Shown piece by piece: positions 1,688-18,488 of a DNA stretch of 33,995 bases. The DNA comes from Plectonema cf. radiosum LEGE 06105 (GTDB lineage: Bacteria > Cyanobacteriota > Cyanobacteriia > Cyanobacteriales > Nostocaceae). The position numbers and the translations under genes are program-made. The stretch is from assembly GCF_015207665.1 (NCBI RefSeq), contig NZ_JADEWL010000072.1, forward strand, positions 1 through 33,995. Reading direction: 5' to 3'. The number at the start of each line of letters is the position of its first letter. The first letter of the stretch is position 1. The notes beneath the pieces were generated by a model. It was not told where the DNA came from and ran no database searches. It was given only the letters and a program-made list of their open reading frames with translations.

Positions 1688-1753
1688 TACTCTAATTTCG
1701 TCCGAATGTAGTTAAACAAAACAATAATTCCCAACGCCTAATAAAAAGTTTTG

Positions 1754-4700
1754 ATGATGAAAAACAATACCACAGATAGAAGTAAATTATCTCCCTTGCA
1801 ACGTGCTGCTATCGCTTTAAAAGAAATGCGTATCAAGCTTGATGCGGCGGAAAACTCGAAAACTGAACCAATCGCTATTGTTGGTATGAGTTGCAGGTTT
1901 CCCGGAGGAGCCAATTCTCCCGCACAATTTTGGCAACTATTACGCGATGGGGTGGATGCAATTACAGAAGTTCCTCAAGATAGATGGAATATTGATGAAT
2001 ATTATAGTTCCAATCTGAATCTTTCCGGTAAAATGTATACCCGTAATGGCGGGTTTATTGAAAATGTAGACCAATTTGACCCCCATTTCTTTGGGATTTC
2101 TGCGAAAGAAGCTGCGAGTATGGACCCCCAACAGCGTCTGTTGCTTGAAGCTGCTTGGGAAGCTTTGGAATATGGGGGACAATCTCCACAACAACTACAC
2201 GGTTCTCAAACCGGGGTGTTTATGGGATTGTTTATGGATGATTATTCCCGATTTAATCTTTATTCTGGCGACCATAACCGTATTGATGGTTACAGCAGTT
2301 TAGGTAATGCCCGCAGTGTGGCGGTGGGTCGGATAGCTCATTTTTTAGGTTTACAAGGACCTGTGATGCAGCTCGATACCGCTTGTTCTTCTGCTTTATT
2401 AGCGGTGCATTTAGCTAGTCAAAGTCTGCGTTCTGGGGAATGTAACATGGCTTTAGCTGGTGGGGTTAATCTCATTTTATCTCCAGAGGCTTCCATCGGT
2501 TTAAGTAAAATGCGAGCATTGGCTCCCGACGGACGCTGTAAAACCTTTGATGCTGCTGCTGATGGTTACGGTAGGGGTGAAGGTTGCGGGATTGTTGTTC
2601 TCAAACGATTGTCGGATGCAATTGCCAACGGCGATCGCATCTTGGCTATGGTTCGGGGTTCTGCTGTTAATCATGATGGTGCTAGCAGCGGTTTAACTGT
2701 TCCCAACGGATTGGCTCAGGAAGCCTTAATTAAGGAAGCGTTGAAAAATGCTCGCGTAGAACCCCATCAAGTTAGTTATGTAGAAACTCACGGAACCGGA
2801 ACTGCTTTGGGAGATCCAATTGAAGTCAGAGCTTTAGGTTCGGTTTTCTGCGAAAATCGTTCTTTGGAATCACCTTTGTATATTGGTTCGGTAAAAACTC
2901 AAGTTGGTCATTTAGAATCTGCTGCTGGGGTTGCAAGTTTAATCAAGGTAATCCTGGCTTTGCAAAACAAGGAGATTCCCGGTAATTTACATTTAAAGCA
3001 ACCCAGTTCTCACATTGCTTGGGATAAACTTCCGGTTAAGGTTCCCACCGCTCCTACAAAATGGGATTGTGAAGCAAAAAGATTGGCTGGTGTAAGTTCT
3101 TTTGGAATTAGCGGTACCAACGTTCATTTAATTGTAGAAGAAGCACCACAAGTAGAATCTTTACAGTCGGATATTGAACGTCCCCTACATTTATTATGTT
3201 TATCAGCGAAAACAGAACCAGCCCTGGTTGCTCTTACCCAAGATTATCAAACATTCTTAAAATCCCATCCAGGATTATCTCTCACAGATATTTGTTTTAC
3301 AGCCAATACAGGGCGATCGCACTTGAAACACCGATTGGCTATAGTTGCTGAATCGACAACGGTTTTGGGCGAAAAATTACGGGTTTTATCCCTCAGTGAT
3401 TCTACTAATAAATTAATTAAAGGAGTAGCAGAAAACAACCAGAATAAAATCGTCTTTCTATTTACGGGACAAGGTTCTCAGTATGTGGGAATGGCTCGTC
3501 AACTTTACGAAACTCAACCGACTTTCCGTAAAACATTAGATAGATGCGACGAGATTTTACGTCCTTATCTGCAACAACCTTTATTATCGGTACTTTATCC
3601 AGAATCTAACGCCCTAGAGTTATTGCACGAAACTGCTTATACTCAACCGGCACTGTTCGCTATAGAATACGCTTTAGCAGAGTTGTGGAAATCCTGGGGT
3701 ATTGTTCCGGATGCAGTTATGGGTCATAGTGTTGGTGAATATGTCGCTGCTTGTGTCGCTGGAGTATTTAGTTTAGAAGATGGATTAAAATTAATTGCGG
3801 AACGGGGAAGGCTTATTCAGTCACTACCGCAAGATGGGATGATGGCTGTGGTTTTTGCTCCAGAAGCTCAGATAACACCTCTATTACAACCTCATGCGGA
3901 TAAAGTATCTATTGCTTGCGTTAACGGAGCTAATAATGTTGTAATTTCTGGAGTTACAGAAACCGTTAACAAAATACTCGAACAATTAAAATCCCAGGGA
4001 ATCAACGCTCAAGCTTTACAAGTTTCTCACGCTTTCCATTCTCCATTAATGACAACCATACTCGATGAATTCGAGCAAGCCGCAAGTGGAGTAGAATTTA
4101 AAAAACCGCGCATTCCTTTTGTTTCCAATGTCACCGGAGAAGTATTAGAAGCGGGAGAGATACCAGATGCTGTTTACTGGAGAAAGCATCTGCGAGGTAC
4201 GGTAAAATTTTTGGCGGGAATGGAAACTTTAGATAAGCGGAGATATGATATCTTTTTGGAAGTAGGACCGAGTTCCACGCTGTTAGGAATGGGTAAAAAA
4301 TGTTTACCAGAAAATACCGCGACTTGGTTATCTTCTTTAAAAAAAGGTAATGATGATTGGACGCAATTACTCGCGACAGTAGGTGAATTATACGTCCGAG
4401 GAACAACAATCGATTGGTTGGCTTTTGACCAAGATTATCAGCGTCAACGGGTTGTATTACCAACTTATCCGTTTCAGCGTCAAAGATATTGGGTTGATAA
4501 ACCACAAGTTAATTTCTCACCCACTAACTCACAACTCACAAATCCAGAATGGTTTTATAATTGGCAGTGGAATCGGGAAAGCTTGGGCGAACCGACAAAA
4601 ACAACAACGGGAGCGATTCTATTTTTCCAGAATAATAATTTGGGAGAAAGATTTTACGAGCAGTTTAGCAGTAAATATACGGCATATTTTATTACTCCCG

Positions 4701-7700
4701 GTGAAATTTTTACCAAGCAAGGAGATAGACAGTTTACTATTAATCCCGCAGCTTCTCAAGATTACGCAAAACTGATTGAAATTATTAAAGCTGATGGTTT
4801 TAATCTATTAACAGTTGTTCATCTGTGGAATTACAATCAAAAGCAGGTTTCGGTAGAAGAATTACTACTTGAAGATAATACTTTAAATCAAAGCTTTTGG
4901 AGCCTCCAGTGGTTAACACAAGCTTTGAATCAACAATATCCCAACCATAAACTGAATCTACTATTGGTAACTCAAGGTGCTTACGTTACATCTGCATCCG
5001 ATAGCTTACAAAACGTACATCAATCAATGACTGGTACTTTGATTCGGGTTTTAGCAGAGGAAAATCCTGAGATTCAAACCAAAGTAGTAGACGTAACTCC
5101 AGAGACTTTACCCCAAGAACTTGCCGATATTATCTACCAAGAAATCCCCATAGAAGCGACAGGGGAAGGTATTGTTGCTATCCGCAATCAACAAAGATTT
5201 ACTCGCAGTTTAGAAAGAATTAAGCTACCTACAAATAATCATCAAGTTTCCCTATCCCAAGGTGATACTTGGTTAATTACAGGTGGTACTAGTGGTGTGG
5301 GAACGGAAATTGCCTTAGTTTTGGCTGCTCAAGCAAAGATTAATTTGGTGCTGACGGGAAGAAAACCTCTACCACCGAAAGAAGAATGGGAATCTGGTAA
5401 TCTTGCTGCTGGAACCATCAAACGCATCCAAACAATTCAACAATTAGAAAGTTTGGGAGCAACGGTAATGTACCAAGCTGTGGATGTGACTGATAGTTTG
5501 GCTATGGAAGATTTAGTCAAAACCATTAAATCACGCTTTGGTAATTTAGATGGTGTGATTCATGCAGCAGGTGTTGCTGACAATACCACATTTAAACTGT
5601 TGCAAAAGTCAGATCAGATAATTTCTCAAGTATTAGCACCCAAGGTTCAAGGGACTATTATCTTAGATCAAGTAACCCGTAACGAACCATTAAAATATTT
5701 TGTGGTCTTATCTTCAGTTTCCGCTTCTAAAGCCGAATGGGGAACTGGTATGGCTGATTATGCTGCTGCAAATACTTTCCTGGATAATTATGTAGTTTAC
5801 CGCAATCAATCTGGTGCTTCGGGACGTTCCTTAGCTCTCAATTACTCTTTGTGGAGCAATCGAGGAATGGGTGCTTTGATGGGTGATTCAACTTTATTGA
5901 TGGTTAAATCAAAAGGTCTTAATCCCTTGGAACCCGAACCAGCAGCGAATGCTTTTATTACTGCTTTGGGTTTGAATGGTTCTTCTGTGATTCATATTAT
6001 TGATTTGATTGAATCAACTATTCCGATTAAGGAACAGAAAACCAAACCAACAAAAACTTTCAATATCCGCGATTTGGTGGGAGAAGTATTAAGTCAACAT
6101 TTGGCGATTTCTGCTGCGGAAGTGGAAGGGTATCAAACGTTTACGGAGTTGGGTTTGGATTCGGTGGGTACTGTAGAAGTTATACAAAGTCTGGGTAAGG
6201 CTTTGGAATTTGAGTTACTTCCTACTTTGATGTTTGAATATCAAACACCAGATGATTTGATCGGTTATCTCGAAGAGATGTTTGGGTATGATTTTGTTGG
6301 TGTTTCGGAAGTTGAAGAAGAGGAAATTAACCGCAGAGACGCGGAGAGCGCTGAGGAAAGAGATGTCGAGGAGCAGAAGGTTTTAGAAGATGATCTGAGG
6401 GAGGATGATATTGCTATTATCGGTATGGCTTGTAAGATTCCTGGTGCGAATAATTTGCAGGAATACTGGGATTTACTAAGTGAAGGACGTTCTGCTGTTC
6501 GTGATGTACCTGAAGATCGATGGTTTAATCAACATTATTTTTCGGAAAATAGTCCTCAATCCACACAAGTTTCTAAACGGGGCTGTTTTGTTGATAATCC
6601 CTTTGGTTTCGATCCGATGTATTTTGGTATTTCTCCCAAAGAAGCCGTCGCAATAGACCCCCAACAACGAGTATTCTTGCAATTAGCGATGCAAGCTTTG
6701 CAACAAGCTGGTTATGGTGGCAAATATCGGACTAAAAATATCGGGGTATTTGTTGGTTGCGGACAAAATACTTACATAGAACATTTTGGCAATTCTCAGT
6801 ACTATGAAGCTTTAAGTCAGCGTTTCGGTGATAGTACTTGGTTTGAAAATTTAAACAATGGCGATCGCCAAAATTTACTCGATACTCTTTCCCAGGTATT
6901 GCAACCCAGTGAAATCTTACCAGAATCTTCTGCTGGTAATGAAGTCAACGAACTTGCAGCTAGAGTTAGTCACTGTTTGGATTTAAAAGGTCCGAGTATG
7001 GCTGTTGTGACTGCTTGTTCTTCTTCTCTGGTAGCTTTGCACATTGCTTGTGAAAGTATCCGTCGTGGTGAAAGTAAAATGGCGATCGTTGGTGGGGTGA
7101 ATTTCAATCTTAGCCCTAGTCCTTTTACTTTCCTCAGAAAAGCTCAAGCTCTTTCACCGACAGGAACTTGTTATCCTTTTGATAAACGTGCTAACGGTTT
7201 ACTTTTAGGAGAAGGTGCTGGTGTCTTGATTGTCAAACCTTTGAAACAAGCTGTTTCTGATGGGGATATTATTCATGCTGTAATTAAAGGTTCCGCAATT
7301 AATAACGACGGACATTCGCAAGGTATCACCGCTCCTAATCCCAAAGGACAAGCGGAAGCCATTCGTCAAGCATATCTCAACTGTGGTATAAACCCCGAAA
7401 CTATTTCTTATATCGAAACTCACGGTACGGGTACACTTTTAGGAGACCCGATAGAAGTCGAAGGGATGACTAAGGCATTCAGTAGTTTTACTGAGAAAAA
7501 AGGTTTCTGTGGCATCGGTTCAGTTAAATCTTCTATCGGTCATTTACTTTCGGCTTCTGGAATTGTCAGCTTAATAAAAGTGGTACTTGCTATGCAGCAT
7601 GGTGAAATACCCCAAACCCTTGGTTTCAGCGAACCCAATCCTCATATTAACTTTGATAACACCCCATTTTATGTGGTCGGTGATGGTAGCAAACAATGGG

Positions 7701-9049
7701 TGAGAAATGGAAATCCTATGCGTGCGGGAATCAACGGATTTGGATTTGGTGGTACTAATTGTCATGTGATTTTGGAAGAATCTCCTTTAACTACAACATC
7801 GGTTGTTAAACCAGAGGAAAAAACTGATTCTCCTCAACTCTTATTCTTAACCGCTCGCAATCAAGAAGCATTGCAAAAAGTAGCAGCACAATTACACGAG
7901 CATATTATCAAATATCCAGAACAAGGAATTAGCCAAATATGCTTCACTCAAAATAATGCTCAAAAGGAACAAGCATTAAAAGCAGCAATTTTGGTTAAGA
8001 ATCGTCAAAATCTGCTCGATAACCTAGATGCTATTACCAACAATCAAACAACATCGGAAATACATACAGGTAAAGCCAATCCCCAACGGAAAATCCCAAT
8101 ACATCTAATATTTGATGACAATATTTCTATAACTCCCCAAGAAGTAGAAATATTAAGAACAAACTTTGGGGAATTTAACCGAGCTTGTAGCGATTGCGAA
8201 CAATATTGGGGTTGTGAAATATCAAATTTAAGTACCAAAGCATATATCTTTGTAGTGCAGTATGCTTGGGGGCGGTGGTTGCAATCTTTAGAGCTTCAAC
8301 CTACTATTTTATTAGGAGAAAAAACGGGTATCATTGTTGGAGCTTGTTTAACTGGAATACTAACATTAGAACAAGCAATCAAGCTGTTAGATTCGCAAGT
8401 AAAACCATCTATTACCCCACAGCAATTAGCATCAACTTGGACTTGTCCCTTAGTTACATCCGAAGGAATCTTTAGACAGCAGCAAAAAATTGATGGAAAC
8501 CAATTACTCAACTGCATCCAAAATGCTCGCTCTTTGAACGCAGAAAACATCAAACAAGTAATTGGTAAACAAGGAGTATATTTGCACTTAGATAACAACT
8601 TATCCTTACAACAGCAAATCACCTCTTTAGATGCTAACGGAACTTGGATAAATCCTGATAAACAGCAATCAATTGCAAACAGTTTATTCACAACTCTAGC
8701 AAAAATGTATGTAGCGGGAGTTCAATTTAATAGCAAGAAATTATTCCCAGAAAACCTGCGTCGAGTAGTACTACCCACCTATCCTTTCCAAGAGAAAGAC
8801 TACAGAGTAGAAGTAGTAACAACTCAAGTTGAACAAGAAACAATTTCCACACTATTACCAATCGAAAAACTACCAAAACTTTCACCAGAACAACGTAATT
8901 CAAGTCGTGCGAAATTAGCAGAAGATTTCAATCCTCAACCAAACAACAGCAAACTTTTACCAATCGAAAAACCAACCCCACTTTCAGCAGAACAACGTCA
9001 ACAAACTTACTTAGCGTTATCTGAAGAATTGGAAAAACTTGGTAAATAA
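1754..9049 (+). CDS. Type I modular polyketide synthase: KS-AT-KR-ACP-KS-degenerate AT
   Basis: Multifunctional megasynthase of 2431 residues. A TTG at 1751 and ATGs at 1754 and 1757 are in frame; 1754 is used for numbering. A short N-terminal LSPLQRAAIALKEM helix resembles a docking segment. KS1 (~38-465) has Cys211 in TACSS, His346 in ETHGTGT and His386 in GHLESA. AT1 (~565-860) has Ser659 in GHSVG and HAFH at 759-762, the malonyl-CoA signature. KR (~930-1345) has TGGTSGVG at 1176-1183 and Ser, Tyr1336 and Asn1340 (YAAAN). ACP1 carries Ser1470 in GLDS. KS2 (~1550-2005) keeps Cys1755, His1890 and His1930. The next ~330 residues are a shortened AT-like region with GEKTG at 2188-2192 where GHSVG should be. 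It ends in the usual post-AT linker LPTYPFQ (2340-2346). There is no C-terminal ACP; one opens the next protein. No loading module is present. Confidence 0.95.
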   Translation: MMKNNTTDRSKLSPLQRAAIALKEMRIKLDAAENSKTEPIAIVGMSCRFPGGANSPAQFWQLLRDGVDAITEVPQDRWNIDEYYSSNLNLSGKMYTRNGGFIENVDQFDPHFFGISAKEAASMDPQQRLLLEAAWEALEYGGQSPQQLHGSQTGVFMGLFMDDYSRFNLYSGDHNRIDGYSSLGNARSVAVGRIAHFLGLQGPVMQLDTACSSALLAVHLASQSLRSGECNMALAGGVNLILSPEASIGLSKMRALAPDGRCKTFDAAADGYGRGEGCGIVVLKRLSDAIANGDRILAMVRGSAVNHDGASSGLTVPNGLAQEALIKEALKNARVEPHQVSYVETHGTGTALGDPIEVRALGSVFCENRSLESPLYIGSVKTQVGHLESAAGVASLIKVILALQNKEIPGNLHLKQPSSHIAWDKLPVKVPTAPTKWDCEAKRLAGVSSFGISGTNVHLIVEEAPQVESLQSDIERPLHLLCLSAKTEPALVALTQDYQTFLKSHPGLSLTDICFTANTGRSHLKHRLAIVAESTTVLGEKLRVLSLSDSTNKLIKGVAENNQNKIVFLFTGQGSQYVGMARQLYETQPTFRKTLDRCDEILRPYLQQPLLSVLYPESNALELLHETAYTQPALFAIEYALAELWKSWGIVPDAVMGHSVGEYVAACVAGVFSLEDGLKLIAERGRLIQSLPQDGMMAVVFAPEAQITPLLQPHADKVSIACVNGANNVVISGVTETVNKILEQLKSQGINAQALQVSHAFHSPLMTTILDEFEQAASGVEFKKPRIPFVSNVTGEVLEAGEIPDAVYWRKHLRGTVKFLAGMETLDKRRYDIFLEVGPSSTLLGMGKKCLPENTATWLSSLKKGNDDWTQLLATVGELYVRGTTIDWLAFDQDYQRQRVVLPTYPFQRQRYWVDKPQVNFSPTNSQLTNPEWFYNWQWNRESLGEPTKTTTGAILFFQNNNLGERFYEQFSSKYTAYFITPGEIFTKQGDRQFTINPAASQDYAKLIEIIKADGFNLLTVVHLWNYNQKQVSVEELLLEDNTLNQSFWSLQWLTQALNQQYPNHKLNLLLVTQGAYVTSASDSLQNVHQSMTGTLIRVLAEENPEIQTKVVDVTPETLPQELADIIYQEIPIEATGEGIVAIRNQQRFTRSLERIKLPTNNHQVSLSQGDTWLITGGTSGVGTEIALVLAAQAKINLVLTGRKPLPPKEEWESGNLAAGTIKRIQTIQQLESLGATVMYQAVDVTDSLAMEDLVKTIKSRFGNLDGVIHAAGVADNTTFKLLQKSDQIISQVLAPKVQGTIILDQVTRNEPLKYFVVLSSVSASKAEWGTGMADYAAANTFLDNYVVYRNQSGASGRSLALNYSLWSNRGMGALMGDSTLLMVKSKGLNPLEPEPAANAFITALGLNGSSVIHIIDLIESTIPIKEQKTKPTKTFNIRDLVGEVLSQHLAISAAEVEGYQTFTELGLDSVGTVEVIQSLGKALEFELLPTLMFEYQTPDDLIGYLEEMFGYDFVGVSEVEEEEINRRDAESAEERDVEEQKVLEDDLREDDIAIIGMACKIPGANNLQEYWDLLSEGRSAVRDVPEDRWFNQHYFSENSPQSTQVSKRGCFVDNPFGFDPMYFGISPKEAVAIDPQQRVFLQLAMQALQQAGYGGKYRTKNIGVFVGCGQNTYIEHFGNSQYYEALSQRFGDSTWFENLNNGDRQNLLDTLSQVLQPSEILPESSAGNEVNELAARVSHCLDLKGPSMAVVTACSSSLVALHIACESIRRGESKMAIVGGVNFNLSPSPFTFLRKAQALSPTGTCYPFDKRANGLLLGEGAGVLIVKPLKQAVSDGDIIHAVIKGSAINNDGHSQGITAPNPKGQAEAIRQAYLNCGINPETISYIETHGTGTLLGDPIEVEGMTKAFSSFTEKKGFCGIGSVKSSIGHLLSASGIVSLIKVVLAMQHGEIPQTLGFSEPNPHINFDNTPFYVVGDGSKQWVRNGNPMRAGINGFGFGGTNCHVILEESPLTTTSVVKPEEKTDSPQLLFLTARNQEALQKVAAQLHEHIIKYPEQGISQICFTQNNAQKEQALKAAILVKNRQNLLDNLDAITNNQTTSEIHTGKANPQRKIPIHLIFDDNISITPQEVEILRTNFGEFNRACSDCEQYWGCEISNLSTKAYIFVVQYAWGRWLQSLELQPTILLGEKTGIIVGACLTGILTLEQAIKLLDSQVKPSITPQQLASTWTCPLVTSEGIFRQQQKIDGNQLLNCIQNARSLNAENIKQVIGKQGVYLHLDNNLSLQQQITSLDANGTWINPDKQQSIANSLFTTLAKMYVAGVQFNSKKLFPENLRRVVLPTYPFQEKDYRVEVVTTQVEQETISTLLPIEKLPKLSPEQRNSSRAKLAEDFNPQPNNSKLLPIEKPTPLSAEQRQQTYLALSEELEKLGK
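6327..6357 (+). repeat. Dispersed repeat inserted in frame in the ACP1-KS2 linker
   Basis: The DNA AACCGCAGAGACGCGGAGAG encodes INRRDAESAEE inside the linker. It matches the common cyanobacterial intergenic AACCGCAGAGACGCAGAG-type repeat. A copy on the opposite strand lies in the spacer at 9189-9215 (CGTCTCTGCGGTT). The surrounding linker is acidic (EVEEEE before it, ERDVEEQ after it), so the insert sits in a flexible, tolerant position. Confidence 0.75.
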
Positions 9050-9303
9050 CCTCTTGATATAAAGAATGGGGAGCAGGGAGTAGGAAGTAGAGAATAGTAA
9101 AGAATTAAGTTCTAAATAAAAAACATCCTCATTCTTTACTACCAATCAATAATTCTTAAACCCCAAATCTCTCCTCCAACCTTCCATGCTCTGCCTTCTC
9201 TACGTCTCTGCGGTTTTTTAATCTGTAATCTCGAATCACAAACACACAAGTGTTGATTAGAAACTTCAAAGTAAACCAATTATAAAAATCTCAACAAATC
9301 ATC
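9050..9303. repeat. Spacer between PKS and NRPS genes, largely dispersed-repeat sequence
   Basis: The 254-base gap splits one biosynthetic module: KS2 and its AT remnant lie before it, the ACP after it. It starts with a purine-rich GGGGAGCAGGGAGTAGG tract and holds, at 9189-9215, the reverse complement of the repeat found inside the PKS gene at 6327-6357. No hairpin with a T-run that I would call a terminator is visible, so read-through from the PKS to the NRPS is possible. No small gene is seen. Confidence 0.6.
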
Positions 9304-12300
9304 ATGACTACCACAACTTTACAACAACAAATCTTCTCCGTCGTTTCTCAAATTACTGGACACGATATCGAAGACTTAGAACCAGATATGTATTTAGAAG
9401 GGGACTTAGGATTAGATTCTATCAAAATCATGGAATTTCTCAACGGATTAATTCAAATTATCCCGGAATCACAACAATCATTATTTATGGAAGTATTGCC
9501 CTTACAAAAATTAATTCAATTACAAACATTAGCAGAAGTTGTCACAGCTACCGAAACTTGTTTATCTACTCAACAACCAAAAACAGAAAAAGTTGAAATT
9601 ATCCACGGTCAATATTTCCACTTACTAGGTCATTGGGTTGTAAACTCCATCAGTTTATTTTCTACTCTACGTCTACGGGGAGATTTTGATAATAACATTG
9701 CTTGGCAAACCTGGAAAGACTTATTAAATCGCCATCCTATGCTACGTTCTCGCTTTATTATCCCTCTTGATGCAACTCGATTCAAAGACTATGAAATTGA
9801 AGTTTTGAATAATCCCAATCCCCCAGAAATTCCCGTTACCGATATCAGACATTTAGATAGTAAAGCTCAAGAACAAGCTATTAACGATGAACTACATCGC
9901 TGTTTAAATTATGAATGGCAAATCACTCAATTTCCCCTACATCGATTCTTTGTCTTTCGTCTCCAAGATTCCCTTTACCAACTCATTTTAGCCAACGAAC
10001 ATTTAATTTCTGATGCTTTGGGATGTCATACAATATTGCGCGAATTTATGGAAATTTACCGCGCTCATGTTAACAACGAACAACCAAACCTACCCCCAGC
10101 TACAACAGTTGCAGAATATCAGCAAATGGTACAATCCATTAATGCTTGGCAAGATACGGAATCAGAAAAAGCCCTTGTAGAATACACCAACCGTCAAGGT
10201 ACGGATTCTTACTTATGGAATCCTGCAAAGAAAAAGATTACATCGGGTTGCCCCGTATTTCACAACCGTCGCTATGCTCTGAGTCATGCTACCACTGCCG
10301 CATTGATTTCTCAAACCCGTGAATGGCGATTACCCCTAAACTCGCTGCTCTTAGCTGCTTTTGTGCGAACAATTGCCAAATTAGAACAGTCCAATCACAA
10401 ATCTATTCTTCTACAAGTACCTACCAGCGGTCGATTTTATCCAGAAGTAGATGCTACAAACATAGTCAGTAGTTTCGCTCAGAACTTATCCATTGATATT
10501 GAATTACCATCCCTCACCGAAGACTGGGAAGTTTTGTTAAATCGAATTCATCAGAAAGTACAGCAGGGAATCGTTAATAATTGCGATCGCACTCAAACTC
10601 GTCAAATGGGAATAGCTTTCCGAGATAATATCGTTTTAGAAAATGGTCAAATACCAACTCGGATGTTACCGATGTATCGTCAGGTATTAAAATCTAATTT
10701 GTACTGTCCCTTTACCGGACAAACTCAAATTGCAAAGCAATATGGAAATTTAGAAGTCATCGATTATCGGGCTGGTGGAATCAACGCTCCCGGAACCATC
10801 GACATTTTACAGGAAATATTCGACGATTGTTTGCAATTCCAAGCCAGTTACGACAGCGATTTCTTCCCTTTGGCAGTTGTAGATCAACTCATGGAAGAAT
10901 ACATCGCTCAAATCGAAGCATTGATTGCGCTCCAAACTCCATCACAACAGGTAAGGAAGCAACTAACACAAACATCAACAGATGGTGATGTTAAATCGAC
11001 ACTCCAAGAAATAGTAGCCCAAGTTAGCCATAATTCCATCAATGAGTGCGATATGGATAAAGATATGGAATCGGAATTGGGTGTTGATTCCTTAGAAATT
11101 ATCCGTATTATTACTAAGCTAGAAAAAAAATTAGGTAAAGTTAACCGTCAAGCTTTACTTAACTGTAGAACTCTCAGAGAAATGGCTGTGGTTCTGAGCA
11201 ATCGACAATCTCTATTAGAAAGCCCCAAATCAGTAGAGATGCCTTACTTAGAAATTATCGCACAAGCCCGACGCACCCCCAACGCGATCGCAGTTACCGA
11301 TGGGGAAGCTCAAATCACTTACCAAGAATTAGATTTACAATCCAACCAAGTTGCTAATTATTTACGTTCTGTGGGAGTTGCTCCGGGTGTATTTGTCGGA
11401 ATCATGACTCTACGAGGTCCGTTGATGTTTGTGGGAATTTTAGGTATCCTCAAAGCTGGTGGAGCCTACGTTCCCTTAGATCCAATGTATCCCCAAGAAA
11501 GAATCAACTACATCCTCGAACACGCCCAAATTAAGATTTTACTTAGCCAAAATAGCTTAACTGAAAAATTAGCAGAATGTTCCCTGCAACAATTATCCTT
11601 AGAAACTCTAATGTTCTTAGACAACGGACATAGCACCGAGTATGAGAACAAAATCGCTCAAATAAACAAGCAAACTTGGTCAAATTATTCTGATAGCAAA
11701 CCAGCTTGCGTCAATACTCCCGACGATTTAATGACAGTATTGTATACCTCCGGTTCCACGGGTAAACCCAAAGGAGTTATGCTCAATCACCGGGGTTACA
11801 TGAATCGTTTGGTGTGGATGCAGAAAACATTCCAATTACAACCAGGAGACAGAGTAGCACAAAAAACCTCTTGCTGTTTTGATATTTCAGTATGGGAAAT
11901 CTTCTGGCCCCTGATGTATGGTTCCACAGTTTGCTCAATAGGAACCAAAACAGTCAAAAATCCCTGGTTGCTAGCACAATGGCTGAAAGACAACCGCATC
12001 AATATCATGCACTTCGTTCCCTCCTTATTTGGGGAATTCTGTAACGCCTTAGAAGATGAAACCTGGAGTTTTCCCGACTTACGCTGGTTAATCTTTAGCG
12101 GTGAAGCATTACCAGTTAACTTTATTCGCAACTGGATTGACAAACATGGGATGAAAACCGGACTTGCCAACTTGTACGGACCTACAGAAGCTTCCATAGA
12201 CGTAACCGCTCATATTATCTCTCAACGTCCCGGTGAAGATCAAAATAGTATTCCCATCGGTAAAGCAATTGATAACGTCTACGTCAAAATACTCGACGCA

Positions 12301-14181
12301 CAAATGCAGCCAGTAACACCGGGAGAAATTGGAGAATTATGGCTTGGTGGAATACAGCTAGCTAAAGGGTATCTCAAAGATGAAGAACGTACAGCTGCAT
12401 CATTCTGTCCCAATCCCTTTCCCGAAGAAATTCCGGGTGACTTCATCTACAGAACTGGTGACTTAGCAATCCAATATCCTGATGGAAATATTGATTACCA
12501 CGGACGCATTGATAATCAAGTAAAAATACGTGGTTTCCGCATTGAATTAGGGGAAATAGAAAGTATTCTCAATACTCACCCATTAGTTAAAGAAGCCGCA
12601 GTCTTAGCCATCGATTACGAAAGCGGACAAAAAAGATTAGTTGCTTACTTAGTAGGTAATCAAGCAGACCAGCAAACAATCAAACAATACTTAGCTCAAC
12701 GAGTACCTGATTACATGATTCCTCAGCGTTGGGAATGGTTGTCGAGTTTGCCCAAAACCCACAATGGTAAACTAGACCGTAAATCTCTCAAAGCTGATAA
12801 AAAGGCAGCAGGGAACAGGGAACAGGCAATAGAAGCACAATCGCCCTTAAATCAAAATCTACCTCTAGGTTCCGCACAACGCTGGTTATTAGAATATTTC
12901 GAGCCTCCCTATCAATGGAATGGTTATACACGTTTTCTGTTCCATCAACCCTTGGATGCAGAAACTTTCAACCAAGCAGTAAATCTATTAATCGAACGTC
13001 ATTCTGCTTTACGTACCGTATTCATCTGCGAAAACGAACAATGGACGCAAAAAATACTTACTCCCGAATCAAATCAATGTACTGAATTTTACGATGCCAG
13101 CCATTTAACTACAGAACAACGAGATCAAGAAATTTGGGAATTAATTCAACAAATCGGTCAAAAATTCCAACTTAACCAATACCCACTATTAAAAATAATT
13201 GTTGTTAAAGTTGATGAATCCTGCTATGACATATCTTTTGTGGGACATCATATGATTGGGGACTTGCTCAGTAATAGAGTCATCTTCCACGAACTATGGA
13301 CAACTTACACCCAACTTTTGGGAAACCAAAATCCCCAGAATAAACCAGCTACATCCTATGCTGATTATGTCAAAGTACTGCAAGAGCAAGAAGAACAAGG
13401 AATATTTGCAACTCATGCAGAATACTGGAAATCGCAATTTCCTTCAGCAGACTATAGTCTAATAATACCCTGGGATTATCAAAAAGGAGCTAATACCGAA
13501 GCCACAGCAGCGATAGAAAAATTCGTTTTTAATGCAGCAAAAACCAGCACCTTGTTACGGTCCGCCAAAAAATACTATAGTTGCAGCGTATACACCCTCC
13601 TACTGGGGGTACTCTATCGACTAACCGCAGAGTGGAGCCGACAATCTTGGGTAGTAATTAGCCATCGCAGCCACGGTAGAACCATAGACAACCAACAAAC
13701 ATTCTTTAACAGTGTTGGTAACTTTGCGATTAACTTCCCTGTAGGTATCAACATCGAAAATCAAGATAATTGGCAACTAATCCTTGAGCAAATAACAACA
13801 AAATTCGACCAACTACCCATGAATGGTGTTACCTTCGACTGGATATCACCACAACTACCCAATCATATCTATCCCGATAATAATCTGACACCAATTAGAG
13901 CCAACTACTTAGGAAATCGTACCGCTCCCACATACCAAAACTTCGAGTTTACCGAAACAGACACAGACAAACGCTTATCAGCACCCCAGCAAAAACGTAC
14001 AACACTAGTCGAATTCTTCTTCTCTTTTACCAATGGACAATTCAATCTAGAAATAGAATACTCGCAGAACTTCCATAACCAAGCAACCATTCGTCAACTT
14101 GGCGATCGCTACTTAGAATTATTGCAAAGTATGCTTGCAGCCATATCTTACGCAAACAACGGTAGCACAGTAAATAGATAA
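9304..14181 (+). CDS. NRPS-like megasynthase with order ACP-C-CP-A(Ser)-C
   Basis: 1625 residues starting at ATG 9304. The protein opens directly with a carrier domain (~5-85, Ser39 in GLDSIKIM), probably the acceptor ACP for KS2 of the PKS. C1 (~95-540) has NEHLISDA at 231-238: the catalytic second His (233) and Asp237 are kept, the first His is Glu and the final Gly is Ala. A second carrier (~555-630) has Ser596 in GVDSLEI. The A domain (~648-1165) has YTSGSTGKPKG at 814, FDISVWE at 859, NLYGPTE at 956, YRTGDL, and the core lysine 1156 in NGKLDRK. Reading the ten pocket positions by alignment to the GrsA motif layout gives DIWHISLIDK, very close to the serine code DVWHLSLIDK. C2 (~1186-1615) has HHMIGDL (His1315, His1316, Asp1320). 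There is no carrier between A and C2 and no TE or reductase at the end. The protein probably acts right after the PKS. Confidence 0.93.
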   Translation: MTTTTLQQQIFSVVSQITGHDIEDLEPDMYLEGDLGLDSIKIMEFLNGLIQIIPESQQSLFMEVLPLQKLIQLQTLAEVVTATETCLSTQQPKTEKVEIIHGQYFHLLGHWVVNSISLFSTLRLRGDFDNNIAWQTWKDLLNRHPMLRSRFIIPLDATRFKDYEIEVLNNPNPPEIPVTDIRHLDSKAQEQAINDELHRCLNYEWQITQFPLHRFFVFRLQDSLYQLILANEHLISDALGCHTILREFMEIYRAHVNNEQPNLPPATTVAEYQQMVQSINAWQDTESEKALVEYTNRQGTDSYLWNPAKKKITSGCPVFHNRRYALSHATTAALISQTREWRLPLNSLLLAAFVRTIAKLEQSNHKSILLQVPTSGRFYPEVDATNIVSSFAQNLSIDIELPSLTEDWEVLLNRIHQKVQQGIVNNCDRTQTRQMGIAFRDNIVLENGQIPTRMLPMYRQVLKSNLYCPFTGQTQIAKQYGNLEVIDYRAGGINAPGTIDILQEIFDDCLQFQASYDSDFFPLAVVDQLMEEYIAQIEALIALQTPSQQVRKQLTQTSTDGDVKSTLQEIVAQVSHNSINECDMDKDMESELGVDSLEIIRIITKLEKKLGKVNRQALLNCRTLREMAVVLSNRQSLLESPKSVEMPYLEIIAQARRTPNAIAVTDGEAQITYQELDLQSNQVANYLRSVGVAPGVFVGIMTLRGPLMFVGILGILKAGGAYVPLDPMYPQERINYILEHAQIKILLSQNSLTEKLAECSLQQLSLETLMFLDNGHSTEYENKIAQINKQTWSNYSDSKPACVNTPDDLMTVLYTSGSTGKPKGVMLNHRGYMNRLVWMQKTFQLQPGDRVAQKTSCCFDISVWEIFWPLMYGSTVCSIGTKTVKNPWLLAQWLKDNRINIMHFVPSLFGEFCNALEDETWSFPDLRWLIFSGEALPVNFIRNWIDKHGMKTGLANLYGPTEASIDVTAHIISQRPGEDQNSIPIGKAIDNVYVKILDAQMQPVTPGEIGELWLGGIQLAKGYLKDEERTAASFCPNPFPEEIPGDFIYRTGDLAIQYPDGNIDYHGRIDNQVKIRGFRIELGEIESILNTHPLVKEAAVLAIDYESGQKRLVAYLVGNQADQQTIKQYLAQRVPDYMIPQRWEWLSSLPKTHNGKLDRKSLKADKKAAGNREQAIEAQSPLNQNLPLGSAQRWLLEYFEPPYQWNGYTRFLFHQPLDAETFNQAVNLLIERHSALRTVFICENEQWTQKILTPESNQCTEFYDASHLTTEQRDQEIWELIQQIGQKFQLNQYPLLKIIVVKVDESCYDISFVGHHMIGDLLSNRVIFHELWTTYTQLLGNQNPQNKPATSYADYVKVLQEQEEQGIFATHAEYWKSQFPSADYSLIIPWDYQKGANTEATAAIEKFVFNAAKTSTLLRSAKKYYSCSVYTLLLGVLYRLTAEWSRQSWVVISHRSHGRTIDNQQTFFNSVGNFAINFPVGINIENQDNWQLILEQITTKFDQLPMNGVTFDWISPQLPNHIYPDNNLTPIRANYLGNRTAPTYQNFEFTETDTDKRLSAPQQKRTTLVEFFFSFTNGQFNLEIEYSQNFHNQATIRQLGDRYLELLQSMLAAISYANNGSTVNR
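12811..12832 (+). repeat. GGGAACA-type heptad repeat inside the A-C2 linker
   Basis: GGGAACAGGGAACAG encodes GNREQ in the linker KKAAGNREQAIEAQS. Heptad tracts of this type (GGGAACA/GGGAGCA) are common in cyanobacterial spacers, as at 9068. This suggests a repeat was captured exactly where a carrier domain would normally sit between A and C. Confidence 0.55.
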
Positions 14182-14188
14182 ATCTGAA

Positions 14189-14235
14189 GATAACCCTCAT
14201 GATAGCTTGTATCATGGGGGGTTTATCTATTTTAT
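14189..14235 (+). terminator. Intrinsic terminator after the NRPS gene
   Basis: The arms GATAACCCTCATGATA (14189-14204) and TATCATGGGGGGTTTATC (14210-14227) form a long stem with one small bulge and a short GCTTG-type loop. TATTTTATT follows. The hairpin begins seven bases after the stop codon, so transcription of the PKS-NRPS unit most likely ends here. Confidence 0.75.
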
Positions 14236-14481
14236 TAGTAGCAAAAAATACAATCAACTTTAGTAGTAAAAAATTGAATAAATTATGAATTTAAAGCCCC
14301 AAAATCTCCGTTCATTGTTGCTTAGTTCATCAACCTAAATTTTTCACTATCAAAAAGTAGTCCTTTACATTATCTTTAATTTGTAACAAAAAGAATCAAT
14401 AATATTGCTATCTTCAAAACAATCATGATAAAGATACGGATGAAAGTGATTTTTCTTGACTATATACAAATACGTAGAAAA

Positions 14482-15111
14482 ATGGTATCAAAAATATCCT
14501 GGTTCGTTCCGATAGCTGTTTCAATACTAGGTGTAGGAGCAAGTTTAACTCCAGTAACAGCCCAAACAACTTTTGATTACAGCGCAACCTTCGATGGAAT
14601 TAGTCTTAGGTCTCTTATACCACCCGATATTGCCGAAATTTCTTATGAAGGTGAGAGTGATGATGCTTCATTGGGTTTGAATCAATTAAACGCTTTACTA
14701 TACAGCCAAGTTGACCCTACTACAGGTGAAGCCATCTTAAACACAAATCCAAATATATTTGGTGTTGACAGACCAAACGGTTCCTTTGTATTGCAGGGAA
14801 ATGGTGATGACAAAATATTTGCTTCGGTTGATTCTACTGGATTAGTAAACTTTGAAACTGGTATTGAAACTCTGACTGGTACAGTTAATATTCTTGGAGG
14901 AGAGGGAAGGTTCAGTGATGCTCAGGGAAGTCTATCCCTTGGAGGAACTGTTGTGATTGATTTAGAGCCAAATGTTCCTGAACCAACTCAAATCACAGTA
15001 AATGGTTCGTTTACAGTTTCTAAATCTGTTCCAGAACCAAGTACTCTAGTGACATTGATTGGTTTAGGTGTAACTGGAGCAAGTGCCATGTTTAAACGAC
15101 ATCTAATCTAG
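14482..15111 (+). CDS. PEP-CTERM-anchored exported protein of unknown function
   Basis: From ATG 14482 the product (209 residues) begins MVSKISWF, with a hydrophobic stretch and a SLTPVTA-Q cleavage-like site: a signal peptide. ATG 14425 is in frame and adds 19 residues, but leaves the signal peptide deeply internal, so 14482 is preferred. The C-terminus is SVPEPSTL, a hydrophobic helix and KRHLI, a PEP-CTERM sorting signal that the exosortase system removes after export. The middle resembles no enzyme I recognise; it is Asp/Gly/Ser-rich and probably beta-structured. It lies between a terminator on each side, and the shared upstream element is not before it, so it may be a bystander in the biosynthetic locus. 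No exosortase is in the window. Confidence 0.8.
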   Translation: MVSKISWFVPIAVSILGVGASLTPVTAQTTFDYSATFDGISLRSLIPPDIAEISYEGESDDASLGLNQLNALLYSQVDPTTGEAILNTNPNIFGVDRPNGSFVLQGNGDDKIFASVDSTGLVNFETGIETLTGTVNILGGEGRFSDAQGSLSLGGTVVIDLEPNVPEPTQITVNGSFTVSKSVPEPSTLVTLIGLGVTGASAMFKRHLI

Positions 15112-15170
15112 CTAGGTATTGCAGAGAAAGAGAAAAAAATAACACTATTACTAAATTGGTAATTAACACA

Positions 15171-15196
15171 AACCTGTCGCTGCGACGGGTTTTACT
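15171..15196 (+). terminator. Intrinsic terminator after the PEP-CTERM gene
   Basis: AACCTGTC pairs with GACGGGTT around the loop GCTGC (an eight-pair stem with one G-U), followed by TTTACTGTTATT. It lies 59 bases after the stop codon. Confidence 0.65.
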
Positions 15197-15452
15197 GTTA
15201 TTAATAAGTACTTAAGCCCGTATTATTTATATAATTACTAATAAGTTATATTACTGTTCCCTATTCACTATTCCCTGACTAAAAGAAATGTCTAATTAAT
15301 GAAGGCACAGGTACTTATTGGATTAACACACATCTTGCACCTGAACTAAAAACCGGATTTTTCGCAAATATCTGAGGCTAAAAGCCTTGATTTTCCATTT
15401 AGAAACCCCGTTTTTTGGTCTTATTGAGAATGGTTCAAGATATAAATTCATG
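15197..15452. other. Spacer upstream of the thioesterase gene with dispersed repeats
   Basis: No gene is seen between the PEP-CTERM terminator and the conserved upstream element. It holds a CCCTATTCACTATTCCCTG tract near 15256 and a pair of opposed motifs (AAAACCGGATTTTTCGC near 15350 and AGAAACCCCGTTTTTTGG near 15401). The latter belong to the same dispersed family as the spacer at 21715-21785. Confidence 0.5.
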
Positions 15453-15538
15453 TCAAACGAATATGCTATTTTATCGAAACATTTTCCATTGAAAGTATAT
15501 TTTGTATCGTTTAACCTGATTAATGTAGTTGATTAATT
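15453..15538 (+). promoter_or_regulatory. Conserved upstream element, copy 2 (before the thioesterase gene)
   Basis: Ungapped partner of 1602-1687. It keeps TTTTCCATTGAAA, TAACCTGATTAATGTAG and both TGATTAAT boxes (15517-15524 and 15530-15537). It ends 85 bases before the thioesterase ATG. Similarity fades on both sides, while the downstream genes are unrelated, so conservation of this stretch alone argues for a regulatory role or a recent local duplication. Confidence 0.65.
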
Positions 15539-15623
15539 GAATTAAATGCAAATGCCTCAAAAATTCAATTAACCAAGTAAACATCTATGAGAAAAATATT
15601 GCCAAATTCCCCATATAAAAAAT

Positions 15624-16430
15624 ATGAAAACGCAACATAAATTGACTTCTTGGATTAGCTGTCCTAAACCAAATCCGCGAGCTACTCTCAAATTATTCTG
15701 CTTTCCCTGTGCGGGAGGTACAACTTCACCATATAGTAAATGGCATAAATATTTACCAGAAGAAATAGAGATTAACTTGATTCAACTTCCCGGAAGAAGT
15801 TATCGAATAGAAGAACCACTTTTTACTAATTTATTGTCACTTATCAAAACAATCACATCAGAAATTAAACCTTATTTAAATAAACCATTTGCCTTTTTTG
15901 GTCATAGTATGGGTGCAACCCTTGCCTTTGAAATTACCCGTCAACTACGTCGTGAAAATCATCTGATTCCAACTCATTTATTTGTTGCTGCTTGTCCTGC
16001 TCCTCATAGCCCCATCAAGAAACCTTTTATTCATAAATTAGCAGAAACCGAATTTATCGCAGAACTGCAAAATCGTTATAATGCCATACCTCAATCAATT
16101 TTGAATAACAAGGAATTAATGCAAATGTTTCTACCTTGTTTGCGGGCAGATTTTACAATGATTGAAACATATATGTATGGGCTTGAAAAACCACTTGATT
16201 GTCCAATAACTGTATTTGGAGGCTTACAAGATAAAGCAATTAGTATGAATAACTTAGAATATTGGTGTGTTAATACTAATGATATTTTCAAATTGGAAAT
16301 ATTTCCAGGAGACCATTTTTTCTTACATCATCCTCAATCATCTTTTCTACAATCATTATCTCAAACAATTTCCGATAATATTTTAGCAGTAAACTTACCG
16401 ATTAATTATAGTAACAAGCAAATAGCATAA
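15624..16430 (+). CDS. Type II thioesterase (editing TE of the PKS/NRPS)
   Basis: 268 residues, the usual size for external thioesterases of the GrsT/RifR family. Visible marks are LKLFCFPCAGG near residue 25, LPGR near 56, the nucleophile Ser95 in GHSMG, Asp203 in FGGLQDKAIS and His231 in GDHFF, the alpha/beta-hydrolase triad. Such enzymes hydrolyse wrong or stalled acyl groups from carrier domains. It is a separate transcription unit from the PKS-NRPS but carries the same upstream element and lies on the same strand, so a role in this pathway is likely. Since the assembly line has no terminal TE, it could also help release product, though the family usually edits. The MFS gene follows after 98 bases. 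Confidence 0.92.
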   Translation: MKTQHKLTSWISCPKPNPRATLKLFCFPCAGGTTSPYSKWHKYLPEEIEINLIQLPGRSYRIEEPLFTNLLSLIKTITSEIKPYLNKPFAFFGHSMGATLAFEITRQLRRENHLIPTHLFVAACPAPHSPIKKPFIHKLAETEFIAELQNRYNAIPQSILNNKELMQMFLPCLRADFTMIETYMYGLEKPLDCPITVFGGLQDKAISMNNLEYWCVNTNDIFKLEIFPGDHFFLHHPQSSFLQSLSQTISDNILAVNLPINYSNKQIA

Positions 16431-16528
16431 CTCTCTTTTTATAGATTAAAAACAGAAAAAATTTGATTTTTATATCTATAACACATCAAAAAATAGTAAA
16501 TTCTATCTGATAACTACTCCCTAAATCA

Positions 16529-17692
16529 ATGAAACTATCTAAACAAAAAAAATCCAATTCAATATTCTCCGACGGGTTATTAGCCTTATACATAATTGCG
16601 TTTTTAACAGGTATTTCATTAGGATTTTTTAATCCTTTTATTTCAACATTAATGGCTCAAAATCAAGTCAATGAAATCTATATAGGAGCAAATTCTACCG
16701 TCTATTTTCTTGTTATAGCCCTAGTAACTCCCTTCGTTCCCAAAATATTACGTAGATTTGGACTGGCTAAAACAATGATATTTGGCTTCGTATTAATGGC
16801 AGTTTCTGCATCTCTATTTCCCATGACAACACAACTACCATTATGGTTTTTAATCCGTATTTTTATGGGTATAGCTTGCTGTTTGTATTTAGTTAGTGGA
16901 CAAACCGCATTGAATTATTTGTCTCACGAAGGTAATAGAGCAATGGTTAACGGAATTAATGCTCTAGCTTTAACTTTGGGCTTTGGTGTTGGACCTCTTT
17001 TCGGTTCTTCACTCTACCAAATTTCCCCACAACTTTCTTTCTACTTTGGTAGTCTTGTAATTCTGAGTGGAGTAATTGTAGTTTGGATTGGTTTACCTCA
17101 AAAAAGTATTAGTTTTCAAACATCTACTCACACCAAAATTCTCAGCAAACTTAAACTTCCTCTAGTTGGTGCATTTGCCTATGGTTTCGCTGAATCTACT
17201 TTAGTAAGCTTATATCCAGTATTTTTGTTAAAACAAAATTATAGTGTAGATAAAATTGGTGCTACTTTGGCTATTTTTATAGTTGGTGGTTTGATTTCTA
17301 CCGTTCCAATTGCTTATATTGGAGACAAACATGGTCGATTAAAAACCCTATTTTTTGCTGCTTGTATTGTACTCTTTTCATTTATATTTCTTTCGTTTAG
17401 TTACAATATTACTGCTACTAATATATTTGCATTTACTGTAGGGGCAGGATTTTCTCCCATTCTACCTTTAGCAATCGCATTAATTGGTGAAAGCATTTCT
17501 CAACATCAACTTTCTACAGGTACTTCTATATTTATGGGTACTTATAGTTTTGGATGTACCGCAGGACCAATACTTTCTTCCTTCGTGATGCAAAGTATTG
17601 GCGACCGTTACATATTTAGTTTAGTAATAATTAGCTTCTCAATCTTTTCATCCTACATACTCAAAAAAATTATGCAGGTAAAAACAATCTAA
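16529..17692 (+). CDS. MFS-family transporter, probable product exporter
   Basis: 387 residues with about twelve hydrophobic segments, the size and layout of major facilitator drug/metabolite:H+ antiporters. The loop after TM2 has RRFGLAKT (a weak motif A), and the symmetrical loop in the second half has GDKHGRLKTL starting at residue 265, a good motif A. The segment LNYLSHEGNRAMVNGINALALTLGFGVGPLFGS fits the TM5 region of exporters. It sits 98 bases after the thioesterase on the same strand, without a clear terminator between them, so the two are probably co-transcribed. Export of, or self-protection from, the PKS/NRPS product is the natural inference; the substrate cannot be read from sequence. 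Confidence 0.88.
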   Translation: MKLSKQKKSNSIFSDGLLALYIIAFLTGISLGFFNPFISTLMAQNQVNEIYIGANSTVYFLVIALVTPFVPKILRRFGLAKTMIFGFVLMAVSASLFPMTTQLPLWFLIRIFMGIACCLYLVSGQTALNYLSHEGNRAMVNGINALALTLGFGVGPLFGSSLYQISPQLSFYFGSLVILSGVIVVWIGLPQKSISFQTSTHTKILSKLKLPLVGAFAYGFAESTLVSLYPVFLLKQNYSVDKIGATLAIFIVGGLISTVPIAYIGDKHGRLKTLFFAACIVLFSFIFLSFSYNITATNIFAFTVGAGFSPILPLAIALIGESISQHQLSTGTSIFMGTYSFGCTAGPILSSFVMQSIGDRYIFSLVIISFSIFSSYILKKIMQVKTI

Positions 17693-17765
17693 TTTTAAAG
17701 GTTTATGGGAACACTATATTAATCTTTTCCTCACGTTCTCTGTTCTCTTTTACATATCATCAAGA

Positions 17766-18488
17766 ATGAATTTTATGTCTACTTCTCCATCTATGTACCG
17801 TATTACCGCACTTTTGTTAATTATTGAAAGCCTACTTTTGTTTATACCAATAATTGTTCTTGGTCAAGCAATAGATTGGCCCGCTAGTTTAAGTCAACCT
17901 GCCAGTAAAGTTTTACCCTTATTAGTAGAACAATCTCAACCAGTTTTCATCGGTTATTTCACTTACCTAATCTATTCAGTATTGTTTTATCCGATTTCAC
18001 TGCTGACTATCCAAATCCTTAAAAGCAAAAGTAATAACAATCCTTATCTGAATTTGGCAGTTGGATTTGGTATTGCTTCAATGATTTGCCGTACTTTAGG
18101 CATTATACGATGGCTTGCTCCCATGCCTCTGATGGCAAAAATTTACGTGCAGCCTTCAACCTCAGAAACAACCCGAACTGCTATAGACGTAGTTTATCAA
18201 GCTCTTAATCAATATGGAGGCTCTATTGGTGAAGTCTTAGGAGTGAGCTTATTTACAACATTATGGCTAATCATTGTTTCCCTTACAATTCTCAAAACTA
18301 GAATTCTACCGCGCTGGCTTGGTATGTCCGGATTCATTTCTAGTATGCTGTTGACAACTCAGTTAGTGGAATTATTCGGTATAGATACTGGCTCTTTTAT
18401 AGCAGTCTCAGTAAGTGTCTTTCAGATATGGTTATTAGCTATGGGAATTGTCTGTTTGCTGCGTTCTTTCAAATTCAAAAATAGTTAG
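17766..18488 (+). CDS. Small polytopic membrane protein, possibly DUF4386-like
   Basis: 240 residues with about six hydrophobic segments and few charges (MYRITALLLIIESLLLFIPIIVLG near the N-terminus). Internal motifs CRTLGIIRWLAPMPLMAKIY and LPRWLGMSGFISS resemble DUF4386-type membrane proteins, but this is from memory and not firm. ATGs at 17766 and 17775 are both possible starts. It follows the MFS gene by 73 bases on the same strand and may be the last gene of the thioesterase-MFS unit. Function unknown; a role in tolerance or transport is possible. Confidence 0.7.
   Translation: MNFMSTSPSMYRITALLLIIESLLLFIPIIVLGQAIDWPASLSQPASKVLPLLVEQSQPVFIGYFTYLIYSVLFYPISLLTIQILKSKSNNNPYLNLAVGFGIASMICRTLGIIRWLAPMPLMAKIYVQPSTSETTRTAIDVVYQALNQYGGSIGEVLGVSLFTTLWLIIVSLTILKTRILPRWLGMSGFISSMLLTTQLVELFGIDTGSFIAVSVSVFQIWLLAMGIVCLLRSFKFKNS

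Follow-up and report, generated by a model that had tools for sequence, protein, structure and literature searches.

Lipopeptide clusters in which a fatty-acyl-AMP ligase (FAAL) primes a cyanobacterial hybrid of polyketide synthase (PKS) and nonribosomal peptide synthetase (NRPS) include those of puwainaphycin, hapalosin and the jamaicamides, as named in an excerpt of PMC11837247, and are among the described systems that come closest to a locus that we analyzed in Plectonema cf. radiosum LEGE 06105. This locus lies on the complete contig C64 (NZ_JADEWL010000072.1; 33,995 nucleotides, hereafter the window) of a 7.6-Mb genome assembled in 323 contigs and comprises genes for a PKS (PKS2), an NRPS, a stand-alone thioesterase and a major facilitator superfamily (MFS) exporter. 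In our view, an assembly break has likely split a cinnamate-primed PKS–NRPS cluster, of which the window holds the 3' half. As judged from its genes, this cluster probably converts cinnamic acid derived from phenylalanine, together with serine, into a small molecule, and the product would be a phenyl-diene polyketide joined to serine. A role of this product as a siderophore was considered and dropped.

Like the FAAL-primed clusters, the locus combines an adenylate-forming loading enzyme, an acyl carrier protein (ACP), a short PKS with acyltransferase (AT) domains in cis and then an NRPS, and there are relatives of it with FAAL-like proteins. It differs from them in a primer that would derive from phenylalanine ammonia-lyase (PAL) and in a serine module composed of condensation (C), peptidyl carrier protein (PCP), adenylation (A) and epimerization-type (E) domains in the order C-PCP-A-E*, the last of which we call E*, with nothing behind it save a short-chain dehydrogenase/reductase (SDR) in some relatives. 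The cyanobacterin/furanolide (cyb) clusters offer a second point of comparison, as proteins resembling CybE and CybF, which an excerpt of PMC8777810 describes, are found in nine of 16 other PAL neighbourhoods examined, as a thiamine diphosphate (ThDP) enzyme and a KASIII-like protein (named by Pfam in one of them). At two places (G042 and G022:C15), such a cyb-type PAL operon with ThDP and KASIII-like genes even directly adjoins a version of the cluster. Unlike in the cyb clusters, however, the ligase of our locus is fused to an ACP and has a PKS gene behind it, and no ThDP or KASIII homologue is present among the open reading frames (ORFs) of the window or in the stretches (L113/L114) of C42, a second contig of the genome that is introduced below. 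The solanimycin NRPS SolG, finally, is the second NCBIfam match of the window's NRPS at 428 bits, far under the cut-off of 2200 bits. The two have serine in common, and the C domain of SolG has been named a candidate for dehydrating it, but SolG has been proposed to work iteratively and to yield a dehydroalanine chain, and the excerpt of its source describes nothing like E* (PMC10204066).

No described pathway with such a layout was found in a literature search (cluster databases lay outside its scope), which agrees with an earlier note on this DNA that had called the architecture unfamiliar and had recognized no characterized pathway. The same note had diagnosed a hybrid PKS/NRPS, and ketosynthase (KS), AT and ACP as well as C, A and PCP domains are indeed encoded by consecutive genes on the same strand. 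The kind of system, a PKS–NRPS, is thus known; what is new is the permuted serine module, the E-derived terminal domain with a motif of its own and the constant presence of a secreted partner in Cyanobacteria.

Loading genes on a second contig

Contig C42 of the same genome carries genes for a DAHP synthase, PAL, a ligase with a fused ACP (ligase-ACP) and a first PKS (PKS1) with KS, AT, dehydratase (DH), ketoreductase (KR) and ACP domains in this order, and further encodes an AraC-type regulator, a conserved protein of 119 amino acids and a PEP-CTERM protein. Behind PKS1 begins a haemagglutinin-like gene, whose 5' part includes a Pfam TPS (two-partner secretion) domain, and the contig stops inside the repeats of this gene. 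The window begins at its base 1 inside similar haemagglutinin repeats (174/348-bp tandem repeats at 1–695) and carries the 3' part of such a gene (3–962, + strand), and the end of C42 and the start of C64 overlap by 89 identical bases. In the closest relative, G007, PKS1 and PKS2 likewise lie at the ends of two contigs, and in five genomes (G100, G022:C60, G403, G404 and G405) the genes for PAL, ligase-ACP, PKS1 and PKS2 are contiguous with the NRPS gene next. In Nostoc sp. FACHB-973, the genes ahead of PKS2 encode PAL, an ACP-fused AMP-binding ligase and a PKS1 of KS-AT-DH-KR-ACP architecture, and the copies of this strain share 91% (PAL), 81% (PKS1) and 84% (NRPS) identity with those studied here.

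The earlier note had seen no loading module, an impression that reflects the start of the contig, at window base 1, within a repeat, with PAL, ligase-ACP and PKS1 located on C42, and the case illustrates how a contig end can mimic the absence of a loading module in draft genomes. Together with C42, the set extends over ca. 35 kb including the haemagglutinin gene and is not the compact locus that it had seemed to be. The note's count of a single functional AT similarly holds within the window but rises to two once C42 is included, as ATs with the GHSxG motif are present in PKS1 and in module 1 of PKS2.

Since PAL, ligase-ACP and PKS1 immediately precede the same PKS and NRPS in five other genomes, the starter is most likely cinnamate made by the cluster itself. 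PAL would form cinnamate from phenylalanine, the ligase would load it onto its own ACP, and PKS1 would extend it to a 5-phenylpenta-2,4-dienoyl chain. The PAL protein contains the Pfam domain Lyase_aromatic and the MIO-forming ASGD motif, and its selectivity site, at which residues separate phenylalanine from tyrosine and histidine enzymes, reads FL.

Some observations speak against this view of the starter and of the split cluster. The haemagglutinin repeat has paralogues elsewhere in the genome, which is why the join of C42 and C64 is likely but not proven. The best NCBIfam model of PAL is indeed that of phenylalanine ammonia-lyase (phe_am_lyase), though its 415 bits fall under the cut-off of 519 bits, and the ligase just reaches a general acyl-CoA ligase model in NCBIfam, so that our assignment of cinnamate follows from gene order.

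In place of cinnamate, the earlier note had predicted an externally supplied acyl starter for a small acyl-serine, which would make C42 a part of some separate pathway. The location of the two halves on separate contigs would fit this proposal, as would relatives with FAAL-like loading proteins, which show that the core accepts acyl starters. We nevertheless regard it as very improbable given that the same genome encodes PAL, ligase-ACP and PKS1, which form one contiguous stretch with the orthologous PKS in five further genomes, that the ends of C42 and C64 overlap and that the ORFs of the window include no loading ligase.

The cluster-made cinnamate starter that we favor appears to be one of several variants. 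A cinnamate set is found in seven genomes (G000, G007, G022, G100, G403, G404 and G405), while PAL as such is present in 20 of 198 relatives. FAAL-like loading proteins occur in G070, G074, G042, N. desertorum and the Firmicutes examined, though the best specific NCBIfam models of the two that were tested, fatty-acyl-AMP ligases, were matched under their cut-offs. In G045, G025 and Microcystis wesenbergii FACHB-1317 (L052), the core is joined to PKS sets that contain PfaD, and the one PfaD tested (G025) scores above the NCBIfam cut-off. In a tree of PAL sequences, the PALs of the seven cinnamate clusters share a branch (support 99/97) with two more, those of G042 and G022:C15, apart from 20 others. 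This grouping suggests that the loading genes were captured from a neighbour, and the arrangement in G042 and G022:C15 is a possible evolutionary intermediate. One group of cyanobacterial PALs, related to an enzyme in use as a drug, would thereby gain a concrete biosynthetic role.

Proposed chain extension by PKS2

PKS2 (1751–9049, + strand like all genes of the cluster in the window; start at TTG 1751 or ATG 1754) has the domain order KS-AT-KR-ACP-KS-AT0, and the scan confirms what the earlier note had read from the sequence, including the degenerate nature of the second AT. Its first module consists of KS1 (1865–3160), AT1 (3431–4420) with an intact GHSVG motif, KR (5246–5860) with both its NADPH motif and its S/Y motif, and an ACP (6071–6280), and is predicted to produce a 3-hydroxy-7-phenylhepta-4,6-dienoyl chain. 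Behind it lie KS2 (6398–7780), with best matches among PfaA and trans-AT-like enzymes, and AT0 (8006–8740), which reads LLGEKTG and does not have a GHSxG motif. In our proposal, KS2 would extend the chain once more on the N-terminal ACP of the NRPS and leave a beta-keto group there, and the malonyl unit would have to be loaded in trans at this step because AT0 is dead.

Three observations lead us to prefer extension with a trans-loaded malonyl unit. The active-site cysteine and both histidines of KS2 are retained in 23 of 23 aligned rows (19 distinct). In variant proteins with the order KS-AT-ACP-C-PCP, the AT at the step equivalent to KS2 reads GHSVG in 11 of the 11 rows that have an AT, which makes extension plausible in these variant clusters, but no AT was found beside the KS of one further variant (L056). 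In a Salinarimonas metagenome-assembled genome (L073), finally, the homologous NRPS adjoins a multi-KS PKS protein without any AT match, and a discrete AT is encoded beside the NRPS.

KS2 may, however, not extend at all. KS2 and AT0 would then pass the chain on unchanged to give 3-hydroxy-7-phenylheptadienoyl-serine without a beta-keto group, an outcome that we consider unlikely given the conserved KS2 residues, the GHSVG variants and the discrete Salinarimonas AT. It nonetheless draws on the absence of GHSxG at the aligned position of AT0 in all 23 rows (19 distinct) and on the lack of any trans-AT gene among the ORFs of the window. The relatives of KS2 in the PDB include AT-less PKSs but CurL and cis-AT PKSs as well.

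The serine module and its terminal domain

The NRPS (9304–14181) starts with an ACP (9313–9543), the presumed acceptor of the chain from KS2, which is followed by the condensation domain C1 (9598–10953; motif NEHLISDALG), a PCP located ahead of the A domain (10990–11199), the A domain itself (11254–12798) and E* (12853–14139). The earlier note had given the order of these domains correctly but had taken the last one for a further C domain. The order C-PCP-A-E* departs from the canonical C-A-PCP, and its recurrence argues that it is real and not a product of chance. A search returned 43 loci, of which six weak ones (L074–L079) were left out and 37 from named genomes were examined. All outside the window, 32 of these 37 have a complete ACP-C-PCP-A-E* series, either in a single protein (24), split after the PCP into two proteins that end in ACP-C1-PCP and begin with A-E*, respectively (seven), or with a frameshift (one). 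The other five (L047, L055, L058, L064 and L069) are incomplete or were not resolved by our ORF calling, which was mechanical and greedy for the longest frame, and two of them (L055 and L058) are cut by contig ends. The core recurs in Cyanobacteria, Clostridia and Bacilli, with hosts among Nostoc and its relatives, Microcystis, Crocosphaera, Moorena, Paenibacillus, Clostridium, Ruminiclostridium, Halalkalibacter, Shouchella and one Salinarimonas. The N-terminal part of the NRPS had no match in a plasmid collection.

The A domain, with the residues DIWHFSLID, is predicted to be specific for serine, in line with the acylated serine derivative that the earlier note had proposed. The pattern D[IV]WH[FY]SLID is found in 52 of 52 rows (duplicates included; ca. 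39 distinct proteins), and codes of the DIWHFSLID or DVWHFSLIDK type denote serine. The A domain would place serine on the PCP that precedes it, C1 would join the polyketide chain to this serine, and E* might then act on the resulting acyl-seryl thioester in a cyclizing release or in chemistry at the alpha-proton rather than in a plain epimerization. The thioesterase (15624–16430; GHSMG), which is of a stand-alone, type II-like kind, would edit or release the chain, and the MFS protein (16529–17692), whose homologues adjoin the NRPS gene in Firmicutes too, would export the product.

E* descends from epimerization domains. Its best PDB matches are chains matched at their epimerization domain, ahead of C-domain chains. 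One of these is PvdL E2 by title, and the matched stretches of TycA, TycB and GrsA are epimerization domains as well. In an unrooted tree of 53 domains, E* groups with the five E domains of the genome on a branch with 99/95 support, apart from C1 and ordinary C domains. Compared to E domains such as those of TycA, GrsA and PvdL E2, E* belongs to the same sequence family and keeps HHxxxD (HHMIGD in the window) in all copies except Salinarimonas. The catalytic glutamate of NRPS E domains lies in an (E)GHGRE motif, and at the position of LE(G/A)HGRE, E* instead has SHRxHGR (SHRSHGR in the window), a motif shared by 36 of 38 distinct proteins that span two phyla. E* also lies directly behind an A domain, whereas ordinary E domains directly follow a PCP. 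The conservation of SHRxHGR across phyla speaks for an activity that has changed rather than been lost, though the specific chemistry that we propose is a guess from motif and position. A predicted structure of PCP-A-E* (pLDDT 81, pTM 0.48) matched multi-domain NRPSs and A domains and was uninformative on the chemistry of E*. We also considered and dropped the idea that E* is a release C domain of the fungal type.

A rival explanation would be that E* is an ordinary or dead epimerase and that the thioesterase hydrolyzes an N-acyl-serine. It accommodates the descent of E*, the presence of a thioesterase in the window and several relatives, and the two copies that deviate from the motif, i.e., SHRTNGR in G025 and, in Salinarimonas, AHRLNGR together with loss of the HH pair (AAAQIAD). 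Yet the exchange of the glutamate motif for SHRxHGR in 36 of 38 proteins from two phyla is unlike a dead domain, and five of six Firmicutes stretches (Rhung, Prhiz, Shou, Halk and ClMAG) have no homologue of the window's thioesterase, so that we find this explanation doubtful and favor a changed activity of E*. An SDR forms the C-terminal end of the protein in 12 of 12 Firmicutes loci with a complete protein and in four cyanobacterial loci, and two of its copies (L050 and L054) have lost the lysine of YxxxK. Among Firmicutes and in some Nostoc, this SDR may take away the beta-keto group, which speaks against one Dieckmann step common to all. In any case, a terminal NRPS domain with a conserved SHRxHGR active-site motif that is common to Cyanobacteria and Firmicutes presents a testable case.

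A secreted partner and the surroundings of the cluster

The PEP-CTERM protein encoded on C42 (L113:6930–7931), which has no Pfam domain match of its own, belongs to a family that accompanies the NRPS in Cyanobacteria. Members are found in the same eight of 100 relatives as the NRPS and in none of the 92 others, and across the order in the same seven of 291 genomes, a coincidence with a chance of 3e-14 by simple counting that ignores kinship. The partner lies within the examined stretch of 13 of 21 named cyanobacterial loci. Of the remaining eight, six belong to genomes that have it elsewhere or further off, one is that of G007 and one is a second cluster of Nostoc sp. FACHB-973, which has no partner nearby in a strain that carries the partner at its first cluster. 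There are one or two copies per genome, with one beside each of two clusters in G022, and in G000, G007, G375 and G387 partner and NRPS are located on different contigs. No partner was found in any of the ten non-cyanobacterial genomes with the core that were searched, its predicted structure (pLDDT 69) had no PDB match at E≤0.001, and a pairing of this kind did not come up in the literature search. Within the cyanobacterial genomes searched, partner and NRPS co-occur perfectly, which ties a secreted PEP-CTERM family to a single assembly line, and we propose that the protein would work with the product outside the cell. Our most far-reaching suggestion, which we put forward only tentatively, is that E* terminates the line on its own (e.g., by closure of a 5-hydroxymethyl tetramate or formation of dehydroalanine from the acyl-seryl thioester) as a new catalytic class within the condensation superfamily, and that the PEP-CTERM partner serves at the outer surface as a carrier, receptor or acceptor dedicated to the product.

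A different PEP-CTERM ORF is located behind the NRPS gene in the window (14425–15111). The earlier note had listed it with the thioesterase, MFS exporter and membrane protein on one strand, which is correct, but we rejected it as a part of the cluster and view it as a local insertion outside the conserved set. It is absent from G007, where NRPS and thioesterase lie 283 bp apart instead of 1442 bp as in the window. Among the loci compared, its best match is a stretch of 53 amino acids with an E value of 0.001.

This insertion, the haemagglutinin gene between PKS1 and PKS2, and a broken NRPS frame in G007 all indicate that the pathway may be decaying in the genus. That the cluster is already a decaying relic there strikes us as improbable, since the PKS2 and NRPS frames are open, the checked motifs are intact save that of AT0, which is lost in all relatives too, and PAL, PKS1, PKS2 and NRPS are 80% to 91% identical to the copies of Nostoc sp. 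FACHB-973.

Two copies of a 70-bp element precede PKS2 (1629–1698, + strand) and the thioesterase gene (15480–15549, + strand), and a 53-bp pattern made from it occurs only at these two sites in the 7.6-Mb genome compared to zero times for a reversed control. G007 has the element at both corresponding positions and Nostoc sp. FACHB-973 has it in front of the MFS gene, and it may serve as a promoter or regulator site. The element provides no connection between C42 and the window: of 41 stretches scanned, the remaining 38 had no copy of its 29-bp core, among them that of C42, where its absence counts against the joining of the two contigs.

Upstream of PKS2, a short remnant matches the first codons of the haemagglutinin gene of C42 (1447–1584, + strand), and a 44-bp direct repeat in about three copies (1171–1313) is situated between the end of the haemagglutinin gene and PKS2. 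Downstream, a DUF4386 membrane protein (17766–18488, + strand) follows the MFS gene. Outside the cluster, two adjacent ORFs of similar repetitive sequence are found at 23497–24684 and 25002–26228, the first of which contains FG-GAP repeats.

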